Assembly: GCF_022749195.1 (NCBI RefSeq)
Contig: NZ_CP094226.1
Span: 1,638,001-1,702,000 of the forward strand
From: Streptococcus oralis
Lineage (GTDB): Bacteria; Bacillota; Bacilli; Lactobacillales; Streptococcaceae
Direction of reading: 5' to 3'
DNA: 64,000 nucleotides
Of the stretch, positions 25,738 through 42,041 are shown one piece after another; the first letter of the stretch is position 1; each line of letters begins with the position of its first letter. The position numbers and the translations under genes were made by a program. Below the pieces are notes generated by a model. That model was not told where the DNA came from, ran no database searches, and worked only from the letters and a program-made list of their open reading frames with translations.

Positions 25738-25831
25738 CAAAAAATAAGCCGCCTGATTGGGCGACTTAATTTTATAGGGAGATTATTATGAAAAAGTTTT
25801 AGGAGTTTAAGTTAAGTTTCTCTTAACTTAT
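25738..25831 (-). ncRNA. CiaR-dependent small RNA (csRNA), copy A
   Basis: About 94 nt, leftward. It starts seven bases after a -10 TATACT (25838-25843) and ends at an intrinsic terminator (GTCGCC / GGCGGC stem, then T-run). The RNA carries two anti-Shine-Dalgarno stretches, CTCCT and TCATAATAATCTCC; the second can pair with both a ribosome site and an AUG. This is the design of pneumococcal csRNAs, which repress comC and other mRNAs. Confidence 0.82.
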
Positions 25832-25853
25832 GAGTCTAGTATACCGTCCCTAA

Positions 25854-25870: not shown

Positions 25871-26439
25871 TTTTTTGAGAAAGTCAGATTTTCCCATTTT
25901 TCTTGCCACTTTTTCTTGGACATCCGTTCTTGATAGAGTTTCATTCGGTCTCTATTCTCTATGAAGTGAGGAGTTGGAGATACCTGAAAATTCAAAATAT
26001 CCTCTAAACCATAAGGCGCAAAGAGATCTAAAGTTGCGTCAGCATGCAAGCGGAGTCCTATAGCCGTACAACGTTCTGGATACTTACTCATAGCATCACG
26101 AGAACTGGTATAGGGCGCAGTGTGAGGACTGTGCAGATGCATATAGACCTGATTTTTCAACTCCCACTGGTACTGAGGAAAATCCTCTCTCAGCTTGTTC
26201 TCTAGGGATACTGTTTCCTCATAAGAAACATCTGGATCAAAGAAAATCACATCCACATCTGTTTCACGGTCAAAAGGCGATTTGTCTGACAAGAGATTCC
26301 AGATAAAATTTCGAACTGAACCAGCTGCCAACCACGAGTCTTTCAGACCAAGGTCACGAATGATGGTCAGAATGGTCATCATATCCAGATTTTCTCTGAA
26401 AGCATCTAGAATTTCTTGTTCATTTTTCACTGTATTCAT
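25855..26439 (-). CDS. Nucleotidyltransferase-family protein (DUF925-like)
   Basis: 194 residues, resembling the DUF925 nucleotidyltransferase family: [11 protein letters not shown] and [14 protein letters not shown] give the G-S-x(n)-D-x-D pattern of a nucleotidyltransferase active site. Function unknown. The start is uncertain: the ATG at 26437-26439 overlaps the end of ruvB by 20 bases, and an earlier ATG at 26454 is also possible. It is translated from the ruvB transcript and ends over the CiaR box of a small RNA gene. Confidence 0.8.
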
Positions 26440-27418
26440 AGCCCAAATGCTCATATGCCTTAGCAGTTGCCACCCGTCCAGACCTTGTCCGCATGATAAA
26501 ACCTTTTTGAATCAGGTAAGGTTCGTACATATCTTCGACCGTCTCGCGCTCCTCAGCAATATTAACGGAGAGAGTTCCTAATCCGACAGGACCACCACCG
26601 TACATCTCAATCATGGTGCGAAGGATTTTCTGGTCCACATAGTCCAAACCTTCATGGTCTATATCTAACATGGTCAAAGCCTTATCGGTAATAACATCAT
26701 CGATAACCCCATTCCCCATAATCTGGGCAAAGTCGCGCACGCGCTTGAGAAGACGATTGGCGATACGAGGAGTTCCTCGACTACGTAAGGCCAACTCCGA
26801 AGCTGCTTCATGGGTGATTTCCATCTCAAAAATATCTGCTGTCCGCTCAACAATCTCTGTCAAGTCAGCGTGGGCATAGTATTCCATATGACCTGTAATC
26901 CCAAAACGTGCCCGCAGAGGATTTGAGAGCATCCCCGCACGTGTCGTTGCACCAATCAAGGTGAATGGTGGCAAGTCCAAATGAACACTGCGACTGCCTT
27001 CACCAGCCCCAATCATGATATCAATGTAGAAGTCTTCCATGGCACTATAAAGCACCTCTTCCACCGGCATGGGCAAGCGATGAATCTCGTCAATAAAGAG
27101 AACGTCTCCAGGCTCCAAATCATTCAAAATCGCTACCAGATCACCCGCTTTTTCAATGACAGGACCAGACGTTTGCTTGAGATTGACTCCCAGTTCATTG
27201 GCAATAACAAAGGCCATGGTTGTTTTCCCGAGACCTGGAGGACCAAATAAAAGAACATGGTCCAGTGCCTCATCCCGCATTTTGGCAGCCTCAATAAAGA
27301 TTTGAAGCTGGTCCTTGACCTTATCCTGTCCAATATATTCACGTAAATACTGAGGACGGAGGGTACGTTCTACCAACTCCTCATCCCCCATGATTTCATT
27401 GTCTAAAATTCTACTCAT
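26420..27418 (-). CDS. ruvB: Holliday junction branch-migration helicase RuvB
   Basis: Hexameric AAA+ motor that drives Holliday junction migration with RuvA. 332 residues. Walker [10 protein letters not shown], Walker [10 protein letters not shown], sensor 1 LIGATTRAG and the winged-helix C-terminus ([16 protein letters not shown]) are visible. ruvA is not adjacent, as is usual in streptococci. Confidence 0.97.
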
Positions 27419-27424
27419 GGCTCT

Positions 27425-27453
27425 ATTATATCAAAAATCCAGCCTACAAACAA
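27425..27453 (-). promoter_or_regulatory. ruvB promoter
   Basis: -35 TTGTTT (27448-27453), 17-base spacer, -10 TATAAT (27425-27430). Its -35 overlaps the terminator T-run of csRNA copy B. Confidence 0.65.
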
Positions 27454-27652
27454 AAAAGCCACCTGATTGGGTGACCTCTTTAGGGAGATTATTATGAAAA
27501 AGAAAAGTTTAGGATTTCATTAAATAAAGGGTACTCAATGAAAATCGAAATCAGACTAGGCAGATAGACGCAAGCATAACTATAGTTAGCTAAGTCGACT
27601 CTAACGAAGTATGGTGAGATTTTCGAAGAGTATTAGGAGGTCTTTATTTAAT
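27451..27652 (-). ncRNA. Enlarged CiaR-dependent small RNA (csRNA), copy B, with RUP-like insert
   Basis: About 202 nt, leftward. -10 TATTAT (27659-27664), then a stem CATTAAATAAAG / CTTTATTTAATG whose loop holds ACCTCCTA, then TCATAATAATCTCCC, then a terminator (GTCACC / GGTGGC plus T-run at 27452-27457). A 101-bp RUP-like element sits in the loop. Without it the RNA would be about 100 nt, like copies A and D. Confidence 0.8.
27532..27632. repeat. RUP-like element inside csRNA copy B
   Basis: 101-bp element with terminal inverted repeats TACTCAATGAAAATC / GATTTTCGAAGAGTA (12 of 15), bounded by TA. It splits the small RNA gene between its first anti-Shine-Dalgarno loop and the closing arm of that stem. 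Confidence 0.7.
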
Positions 27653-27674
27653 GGTTATATAATACAAGAGGAAT

Positions 27675-27691
27675 CTTAAAGCTAACTTAAC
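27675..27691 (-). promoter_or_regulatory. CiaR box of csRNA copy B
   Basis: Leftward GTTAAG-N5-TTTAAG, 10 bases upstream of the -10 box. Confidence 0.75.
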
Positions 27692-27754
27692 TTTTTCTTT
27701 GATTTATCATTTTTTAAAAATTTTTTTCCAAATGGATTTTTCCTCTCCAAGTCA

Positions 27755-27955
27755 TAAAAAAGCCACCTGATTGGGTGACTTCTTTAGGAGATTATGATGA
27801 AAAAGAAAAGTTTGGGATTTCATTAAATAAAGGGCACTCAATGAAAATCGAAATCACACCAGGCAGATAGGCGCAAGCATAACGATAGTTAGCTAAGTCG
27901 ACTCTAACGAAGGTTGATGAGATTTTCGAAGAGTATTAGGAGGTCTTTATTTAAT
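27755..27955 (-). ncRNA. Enlarged CiaR-dependent small RNA (csRNA), copy C, with RUP-like insert
   Basis: About 201 nt, leftward, closely similar to copy B at a distance of 303-304 bp and interrupted by the same element at the same position. -10 TAATAT (27962-27967). The terminator stem GTCACC / GGTGGC ends in a T-run at 27756-27761. Both anti-Shine-Dalgarno stretches are retained. The pair looks like a tandem duplication of an already interrupted gene. Confidence 0.8.
27835..27935. repeat. RUP-like element inside csRNA copy C
   Basis: 101 bp, near-identical to the element at 27532-27632; the left end has changed from TACTC to CACTC. Confidence 0.7.
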
Positions 27956-27977
27956 AACTATATATTACACAAGGAGA

Positions 27978-27994
27978 CTTAAACTTTACTTAAG
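27978..27994 (-). promoter_or_regulatory. CiaR box of csRNA copy C
   Basis: Leftward CTTAAG-N5-TTTAAG, 10 bases upstream of the -10 box. Confidence 0.78.
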
Positions 27995-28008: not shown

Positions 28009-28425
28009 TTATCTTTTTCGATCCACCCAAATCATCCCTGTACAATCATAAGTAGATAAGATTTCAAATCCCAGAGAACGATAGAATTCCAAGGTTTTTT
28101 CTGTCTGTTCGGTCACTAGTTGGACTTGATAGGCATCTTTGTAATCACCTAAAGCCTCTTTCATTAAGGCACTGCCAATCCCTTGGCGCTGATAGCTAGG
28201 CAAAACGATCAAATCCTGGACAAAAATCGATGAAAAACCATCTCCAACCAAACGGACCAAGCCCACCACGGCATCGCCATCAAGTGCTATATAAATCGCT
28301 AATGAGTGAGACAAGGCTTTCTTCAACATCTGAGGTTGATGTGTATAATTTGTCCATCCAACTGCCTGATAGAGATGCAAAACATCCTCTAGCTTGACAA
28401 TTTCTTGCCTTCTAATAGTCATCAT
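28009..28425 (-). CDS. GNAT-family N-acetyltransferase
   Basis: 138 residues. The acetyl-CoA-binding motif A is seen in IVLPSYQRQGIGSALMKEAL (Q/RxxGxG/A), with the typical FYRSLGF near the C-terminus. The acceptor is unknown. It starts 11 bases after the larger acetyltransferase gene, so the two form an operon. Two ATG codons in tandem (28425, 28422) leave the exact start open. Confidence 0.88.
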   Translation of the reverse strand: MMTIRRQEIVKLEDVLHLYQAVGWTNYTHQPQMLKKALSHSLAIYIALDGDAVVGLVRLVGDGFSSIFVQDLIVLPSYQRQGIGSALMKEALGDYKDAYQVQLVTEQTEKTLEFYRSLGFEILSTYDCTGMIWVDRKR

Positions 28426-41947: not shown

Positions 41948-42041
41948 AAAGAAAAGCTACCCTCATGGTAGCTTCCCTAGGAGATTATTATGAAAAAGTT
42001 TAGGATTTCTATTAAACAAAGTTAGGAGGTCTTCATTTAAT
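41948..42041 (-). ncRNA. CiaR-dependent small RNA (csRNA), copy D
   Basis: About 94 nt, leftward. -10 TATACT (42048-42053). The RNA forms a stem (ATTAAATGAAG with a partner near CTTTGTTTAAT) whose loop shows ACCTCCTAA, then TCATAATAATCTCCT (complementary to a ribosome site plus start codon), then an 8-bp terminator hairpin (AAGCTACC / GGTAGCTT) with a T-run. It shows the uninterrupted form of this gene family. Confidence 0.85.

Follow-up and report, generated by a model that had tools for sequence, protein, structure and literature searches.

The 64,000-nucleotide stretch of Streptococcus oralis DNA analysed here (the window) contains two csRNA genes on the minus strand, lying between ruvB and an ORF at 28009-28425 that we take, from its look, to be GNAT-like. 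The name ruvB is likewise provisional and follows the ruvB-uppS locus of Marx 2010. The csRNA gene adjoining ruvB is here called copy B and the other copy C. The features of both are collected in Table 1.

Table 1 Features of the two csRNA genes and of their downstream neighbour. Positions are those of the window.
Feature	Position	Strand	Basis or remark
ruvB	26420-27418	-	332-residue ORF; downstream neighbour, and anchor for finding the locus in other genomes
Copy C, assigned as csRNA6 orthologue, 200-nt RNA	27756-27955	-	Rfam RF02379; maps to csRNA6(Uo5) through L093 and Marx 2010 Table 2
CiaR box, copy C, CTTAAG-N5-TTTAAG	27978-27994	-	Sequence; consensus NTTAAG-N5-TTTAAG (Marx 2010)
-10 element, copy C, TAATAT, 10 bp after CiaR box	27962-27967	-	Sequence
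First-stem 5' arm, copy C	27945-27955	-	Fold and sequence
ACCTCCTAA, first anti-Shine-Dalgarno loop, copy C	27936-27944	-	Fold; unpaired probability 0.85 with insert, 1.00 without
101-bp BOX-related insert (boxA-boxC type), copy C	27835-27935	-	Sequence; homology to genomic relatives
First-stem 3' arm, copy C	27822-27832	-	Sequence; follows extra CC at 27833-27834
Linker, copy C, anti-AUG/anti-SD UUUUUCAUCAUAAUCUCC	27787-27804	-	Sequence, fold and predicted pairing; predicted comC-binding site
Terminator, copy C	27756-27785	-	Fold and sequence
Copy B, csRNA2 position adjoining ruvB, 201-nt RNA with insert	27452-27652	-	Rfam RF02379
CiaR box, copy B, GTTAAG-N5-TTTAAG	27675-27691	-	Sequence
-10 element, copy B, TATTAT	27659-27664	-	Sequence
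First-stem 5' arm, copy B	27642-27652	-	Fold and sequence
ACCTCCTAA loop, copy B	27633-27641	-	Unpaired 1.00 with and without insert (203-nt version of B folded)
101-bp BOX-related insert, copy B	27532-27632	-	8/101 differences from copy C; 99% to inserts of DD15, G005, G236 and G119
First-stem 3' arm, copy B	27519-27529	-	Sequence; follows extra CC at 27530-27531
Linker, copy B, UUUUUCAUAAUAAUCUCCC	27483-27501	-	Sequence, fold and predicted pairing; predicted comC-binding site
Terminator, copy B	27452-27481	-	Fold and sequence

In both copies a first stem with the arms ATTAAATAAAG and CTTTATTTAAT encloses the loop ACCTCCTAA, an insert of 101 bp and a further CC. Both are intergenic, have the box NTTAAG-N5-TTTAAG 10 bp upstream of the -10 element, and end in a terminator. 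They match Rfam family RF02379 with 64.2 and 63.8 bits, the gathering score being 57. For the conserved nonamer (A/C)UCCUAAA(A/C), B reads AUCCUAAAC and C reads AUCCCAAAC, the latter with one mismatch. The two copies are 90% identical, without gaps over a shared 207 nt and with a 1-nt shift elsewhere, and are spaced by 303-304 bp. The original prediction of two leftward CiaR-driven csRNAs with this period, each with its first stem kept around an insert, is therefore borne out. It had also given the RNAs a doubled length of 201-202 nt; the doubling stands, with lengths of 200 nt (C) and 201 nt (B). Of the 101-bp RUP-like element that it placed in the loop, the size and the shared hairpin site hold good; the position is more exactly the 3' edge of the loop, and the name RUP does not survive.

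The Rfam model finds five csRNA loci in the genome, two of which are the csRNA6-type genes B and C. Two further csRNA genes, csRNA4-like (25742-25832) and csRNA1-like (41950-42041) by position and sequence, have no insert, and the fifth is at G000:C1:21777-21874. The Rfam matches to the two filled genes (27452-27539 and 27756-27842) begin inside the 3' end of the insert, so that annotation based on Rfam sets the 5' end of these RNAs 113 nt too far downstream, counted from the promoter-linked start. This is a warning that Rfam places the start of these RNAs far from their promoter.

In S. oralis Uo5, csRNA6 is found at 1714673-1714474 (200 nt) and csRNA2 at 1714371-1714274 (98 nt) (Marx 2010 Table 2, PMC3091779). 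A filled copy identified here (L093, from genome G126) maps to 1714474-1714673, the coordinates of csRNA6(Uo5). Copy C aligns with it without gaps, the csRNA6 type being defined by an identity of 80% or more without any consecutive indel that reaches three nucleotides (Marx 2010). Judged by this alignment, copy C is the orthologue of csRNA6 of Uo5. csRNA2(Uo5) occupies the same place as copy B and has no insert. All the predicted csRNAs of three species were reported to be verified on Northern blots with the anticipated sizes, and the signals to be absent in a S. oralis ciaR mutant (Marx 2010, PMC3091779). Because the size on the blot was as anticipated (200 nt predicted) and the signal CiaR-dependent, an RNA spanning the insert is on record for the orthologue csRNA6(Uo5), and the proposal that a mobile repeat now forms part of a regulatory RNA gains corresponding weight. 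Transcription under CiaR control, reported for the Uo5 csRNAs, is by analogy predicted for copies B and C in the window strain.

The nature of the insert is best seen from its relatives in the same genome. Besides the two inserts there are at least 11 full-length and at least 13 partial relatives, with 71-86% identity over the matched parts (40 of 43 candidates scored). The BOXA1R primer site, the letters of which were checked against print, is found in 10 of the 11 full-length relatives with 2-4 mismatches of 22, and the same ten match the BOX-locus primer of Croucher 2011 with 0-4 mismatches of 20. The interior of the insert scores 28 (B) and 22 (C) against the genomic relatives, and none of 500 single-base shuffles reaches either score. 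The GC content is 37.6% for B and 41.6% for C, well above the mean of 27.5% given for RUP (Croucher 2011, PMC3049150). Judged by the published description of RUP (about 107 bp and AT-rich) rather than by a RUP sequence, inserts of this size and composition do not belong there. The boxA and boxC modules are each given as about 50 nt (Croucher 2011, PMC3049150), and the insert of about 101 bp therefore fits two modules.

We name the insert BOX because of the primer site in ten relatives, the interior homology and a GC content above the RUP mean; on the same grounds the RUP identity was rejected. As in BOX elements of the boxA-boxC type (Croucher 2011, PMC3049150), the ends are TACTCTTCGAAAATC and GATTTTCATTGAGTA, there is full-length homology to the copies with the primer site, and the RNA is predicted to form a hairpin. 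The insert differs from them in belonging to a diverged subfamily (67-77% identity to genomic copies) that does not keep the BOXA1R site, both inserts having 8 mismatches of 22. By its sequence, then, it is a diverged BOX element of the boxA-boxC type, a derivative rather than a standard member.

Identity to the ten genomic BOX copies is 67-76%. The nearest genomic relative, at 77%, is L118 (G000:C1:1755466-1755565), a BOX-like copy outside the csRNAs that also lacks the BOXA1R site (8 of 22 mismatches, and 7 against the Croucher 2011 primer). It is possible that L118 represents the source subfamily of the inserts. A phage match was also seen (78%, covering 13% of the query).

Empty csRNA sites read CCTCCTAA up to the insertion point and CTTT beyond it. 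Filled minus empty gives 103 nt in the window copies, made up of the 101 bp and CC. There is TA on both sides of the insert; the difference of 103 nt leaves one or two bases unexplained, and no clean target duplication was seen. The extra bases are CC in S. oralis-like sequences (TC in L089) and AC in most of the S. infantis type (AT in L106). All 5' junctions read have the same insertion base and the same orientation. The junction pattern itself matched 133 of 284 genomes at up to three mismatches; among the matches listed these were mostly ordinary BOX ends, and they were not used. Two inserts are of unusual length: that of G206 (L100) is 26 bp shorter, at 75 nt, and that of S. infantis SK970 (L049/L114, probably the same genome as G069) has grown to 113 nt through additional short repeats close to the 3' end.

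The insert subfamily was found in at least 28 of 284 Streptococcus genomes, with at least 41 matches at 86% identity or more when the best three candidates per genome were scored; in the same search seven further genomes match at 78% only. Recurrence in so many genomes, at the same base and in the same orientation in the 5' junctions read, excludes chance. Among the matches listed, 37 of the 41 were placed in csRNAs by reading the flanks and two more, in G117 and G121 (the second copy in each), by a match that ran on from csRNA into insert; the last two are pieces from a contig end of G206 that looks scrambled. That contig end (L205, G206:C1:2037000-2041142), which includes pieces of BOX and csRNA, is probably an assembly fault. 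The consensus CiaR box is missing from three of the 37 (G140, G214 and G215).

A narrower survey covered 52 named mitis-group loci (L006-L057) found through RuvB, some of which hold less than 4 kb upstream. A filled csRNA lies upstream of ruvB in eight of these (L011, L031, L046, L049, L050, L053, L054 and L056). Pairs of csRNA genes are found empty-empty (L020, L035), filled-empty (L031, L056, Uo5), empty-filled (L050) and filled-filled (the window, G236, G120). A comparison with relatives had been suggested as a way to look for uninterrupted copies, and these are present in both the empty and the single-insert pairs.

On the basis of these observations, we consider it probable that B and C are csRNA6-type, CiaR-dependent RNAs that go back to a single BOX insertion, passed on afterwards to neighbouring csRNA genes by recombination. 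The first hairpin loop of an ordinary csRNA would have received one boxA-boxC type element, in an ancestor common to several mitis-group lineages or in a lineage that passed it on to others. Homologous recombination between csRNA copies would then have carried the filled hairpin from one neighbouring gene to the next, both where a metabolic island separates them and where none does, and the window now has it in the csRNA6 gene as well as in the one that occupies the csRNA2 position. At the corresponding locus of pneumococcus, the tandem genes ccnA and ccnB are on record as having recombined (PMC9764711). The direction and the route of the spread we infer from the alleles.

The original prediction was that one csRNA gene took up the insert and the filled gene was then duplicated in tandem. 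The common site, the common orientation and the spacing of 303-304 bp agree with this. It is nevertheless highly improbable, since older pairs exist with one insert (Uo5) or none (other strains), and the spacing is accounted for by the filling of an older pair of csRNA genes. The two copies also differ in kind: B has a promoter and linker like those of empty csRNA2 copies, C has both in the csRNA6 form, and inserts occur with both types of linker. Finally, each insert is closer to inserts of other strains than to its neighbour. B and C are 92% identical, yet the B insert is 99% like those of DD15 and G005 (at the island end, adjoining ruvB), of the B-type copy of G236 and of the C position of G119. 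It is also 97% like several C-position inserts, the gap to 99% being two or three bases. The C insert is nearest to the C-position inserts of G236, G120, G118 and G222, at 96%. One diagnostic 12-mer, CACCATACTTCG, accompanies the B promoter type in the window and G236, the island-end type in DD15 and G005, and the C type in G119; a second, CATCAATCTTCG, is found with the B promoter type in G120 and at the island end in G119. The presence of each in several positions implies that insert alleles have moved between positions.

A preference of BOX elements for one target might instead have led to two independent insertions into the same loop of two paralogues. The hairpin does have the same sequence from one csRNA to the next, target duplications are attributed to BOX elements (Croucher 2011, PMC3049150), and a related copy outside the csRNAs, L118 at 77%, is available in the same genome. 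We regard this as unlikely. The inserts form one diverged group against ten genomic BOX copies of the same genome (100/100, in a tree whose bootstrap had not settled), and with L118 and two foreign BOX copies (L199, L200) added they still group together (97/90), L118 joining their side. B and C share their orientation and also the extra CC, which is not invariant, the S. oralis-like L089 having TC. Moreover, 39 of the 41 matches at 86% or more (best three candidates per genome) are in csRNAs, the remaining two being the scrambled G206 fragments. These trees have about 100 columns and most of their inner forks are not resolved. A grouping of the B insert with S. infantis inserts in the first tree (89/89) was dropped, as it was gone once L118, L199 and L200 were added.

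Duplications of csRNA6, and a four-gene island between csRNA copies, have been reported (Denapaite 2016, PMC4863584). In DD15 (L201, 1153-6761 in csRNA orientation) we find an island of 5.5 kb between the csRNA genes; at its ruvB end lies a BOX-filled csRNA whose promoter is of a third type. From the ORF names and Denapaite 2016, the island encodes a flavoprotein/fumarate reductase-like protein, an FMN reductase-like protein, an MFS transporter and an AraC-type regulator. The csRNA spacing of DD15 recurs in L202, L203 and L207.

Within our preferred reading of one insertion followed by recombination, the B insert may have arrived with this island, in the order csRNA2, island, BOX csRNA and ruvB, and stayed behind when recombination between the flanking csRNAs removed the island. 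The arrangement in DD15, where an empty csRNA2 with the B promoter type is followed by the island and then by a BOX csRNA with an insert 99% like that of B, would provide for this, and G236 has the same combination of promoter and insert as the window. We hold this route only tentatively, at rather less than an even chance. In G120 the B position is filled and the island is still there, and G119 carries a B-like allele in the C position; conversion without loss of the island must therefore also happen. In G236 the filled B-type copy does not adjoin ruvB, and an empty copy lies beside ruvB about 26 kb further on. The outcome would, besides, be indistinguishable from direct conversion by transformation with the DNA of another strain.

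The effect of the insert on the RNA was then modelled. Copy B was folded and paired as a 203-nt form with two extra 5' bases. In the predicted fold the first stem is followed by the BOX hairpin, and ACCUCCUAA is an unpaired internal loop, with unpaired probabilities of 0.85 in C and 1.00 in B and in the empty forms. The folds of linker and terminator are unchanged by the insert. Of the 33 distinct filled RNAs, 32 fold with the first stem, the BOX stem and an open loop, with 9-11 of the 11 first-stem pairs (9 of 11 in the 201-nt form of B); L091 is the exception. The alignment (A1) covers 33 of 34 distinct sequences, L100 of G206 with its 75-nt insert being left out; L106 of G240, which departs from the 3' pattern used, and L176, the second copy of G117, which departs from the 5' pattern, are absent from the counts of filled RNAs. 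There is little covariation, with a two-sided change in 2 of 45 consensus pairs.

In G140, G214 and G215 one stem pair changes from A-U to G-C and the loop sequence is altered. These copies (L196, L193 and L195, respectively) come from a distant lineage, in which the filled csRNA, besides the two-sided stem change, has a modified anti-SD loop and lacks the consensus CiaR box.

In the folds with and without the element, the first anti-Shine-Dalgarno loop stays open, and linker and terminator are unaltered. The BOX part would form a separate hairpin above the conserved first stem, the anti-Shine-Dalgarno sequence changing from a hairpin loop to an internal loop that is not paired, and the linker would still pair with start regions such as that of comC, a csRNA target known from pneumococcal work (Laux 2015). 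The predicted pairing of the linker with the comC start region has a ddG of -19.1 kcal/mol for C and -21.3 kcal/mol for B, equal with or without the insert. The BOX arm alone does no better against comC than shuffled sequences, 73 of 200 and 149 of 200 of which are as low. A change of targets, which had also been suggested, finds no support in these identical comC predictions. Since linker and terminator are untouched, the RNA should act like other csRNAs, and from these models we infer that the B and C RNAs would behave as ordinary csRNAs with a bulky 5' domain.

Two additional roles for the BOX arm have been considered. BOX hairpins are said to lengthen the half-life of mRNAs (Mann 2012, PMC3395615, citing Knutsen 2006), which by analogy makes an effect on stability the most plausible added role in csRNA6. 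Alternatively, the arm might be a second trans-acting recognition domain that pairs with oppositely oriented BOX elements in the untranslated regions of mRNAs; this would link the CiaR stress response to BOX-tagged transcripts. For the 11 genomic BOX copies, the predicted duplexes of the arm of copy C reach -81 to -98 kcal/mol with the opposite orientation, before unfolding costs, as against -45 to -51 kcal/mol with the same orientation, and, judged by the nearest ORFs, five of the 11 copies follow an ORF that reads into the antisense strand. We nevertheless think such a role quite improbable.

Whether the arm has a function can be approached through its conservation. At the C position in 15 genomes (from 18 loci listed, L099 being dropped by its box spacer and L031/L098 and L056/L095 counted once each), the ends of the BOX vary in 1 of 37 columns, with a mean difference of 0.7%, and the middle in 14 of 64 (5.3%; Fisher 0.009 for ends versus middle). 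The corresponding figures are 3 of 49 columns (1.0%) from insert to terminator, 36 of 120 (6.1%) for the 120 bp upstream and 47 of 65 (23.2%) for the spacer between C and B. Of 21 relatives, which were picked after the insert matches were known and so favour it, 16 have the insert; with five S. oralis-like genomes without a match added (G125, G169, G201, G230 and G242) the figure is 16 of 26. For three other BOX loci, full-length matches occur in 5, 7 and 4 of these 21 genomes, the first two loci each being matched in split form in one further genome. These controls, 3 of 11 and picked by hand, show insert/flank divergences of 2.2/3.2%, 6.7/5.4% and 0.7/5.1%. In one of them, L124, the matched stretch is about 48 bp longer in most relatives.

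We would give about an even chance to the BOX arm being a tolerated passenger with no function at all. Relatives free of the insert are common (5 of the 21 picked, and the five added), the modelled comC pairing appears indifferent to the arm, G206 carries its insert in a form shortened by 26 bp, and the control locus L128 is conserved as strongly with no csRNA involved. Against this stand the lower variation of the BOX ends relative to the middle, and the wider occurrence of the insert than of the other BOX loci, among relatives chosen with the insert matches in hand. The conservation is thus suggestive of a function, and because the control loci are mixed we do not claim selection as proven. 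Shared recent ancestry could explain part of it.

csRNA6 of S. oralis Uo5 and S. mitis SF100 (Marx 2010, PMC3091779) resembles the RNAs described here in its 200 nt, in adjoining csRNA2 and ruvB and in its CiaR promoter; the window differs in that the gene at the csRNA2 position is filled as well. The long form of csRNA6 is itself already known. The main text of Marx 2010 contains none of the terms RUP, BOX, repetitive or repeat element. The duplicates of csRNA2 and csRNA6 in S. oralis DD05 and DD15 and S. infantis DD18 (Denapaite 2016, PMC4863584) are the same pair at a recombination-prone locus, from which the window copies differ in having no island between them; the csRNA section of that paper does not mention a repeat insert. 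In the passages looked at of accessible papers on RUP and csRNAs, no tie between RUP and csRNA6 was seen, and in those on BOX elements and csRNAs no link between BOX and csRNA6. Within that literature, the presence of a BOX-type element in csRNA6 seems to have gone unreported. A concrete origin, as a csRNA with a BOX-type repeat in its loop, would thereby be supplied for an RNA that was named in 2010 with none stated in the main text. Since filled, empty and chimeric alleles occur naturally in close relatives, the effect of the repeat on the stability or strength of the sRNA can be tested with no need for construction.

BOX hairpins within regulatory RNAs have precedents in the pneumococcal trp leader, where a BOX lies between two T boxes (Croucher 2011, PMC3049150), and in the BOX-containing sRNAs of Mann 2012 (PMC3395615). 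In contrast to these, the BOX of the window lies within the loop of an sRNA that acts in trans and whose promoter and terminator can be recognised. The prophage-altered csRNA3 and the ccnA/ccnB chimeras of pneumococcus (PMC9764711) are similar in that mobile DNA and recombination between csRNAs have reshaped csRNAs; they are described as the result of phage attachment or of a deletion chimera, whereas here a short repeat has entered the loop. A further parallel is provided by CbsR3, CbsR13 and CbsR16 of Coxiella burnetii, in which short mobile repeats (QMITEs) supply sRNA sequence (PMC5896051). Those sRNAs are described as originating from the repeat, while the insert in the window would be a domain added to an sRNA that already existed.
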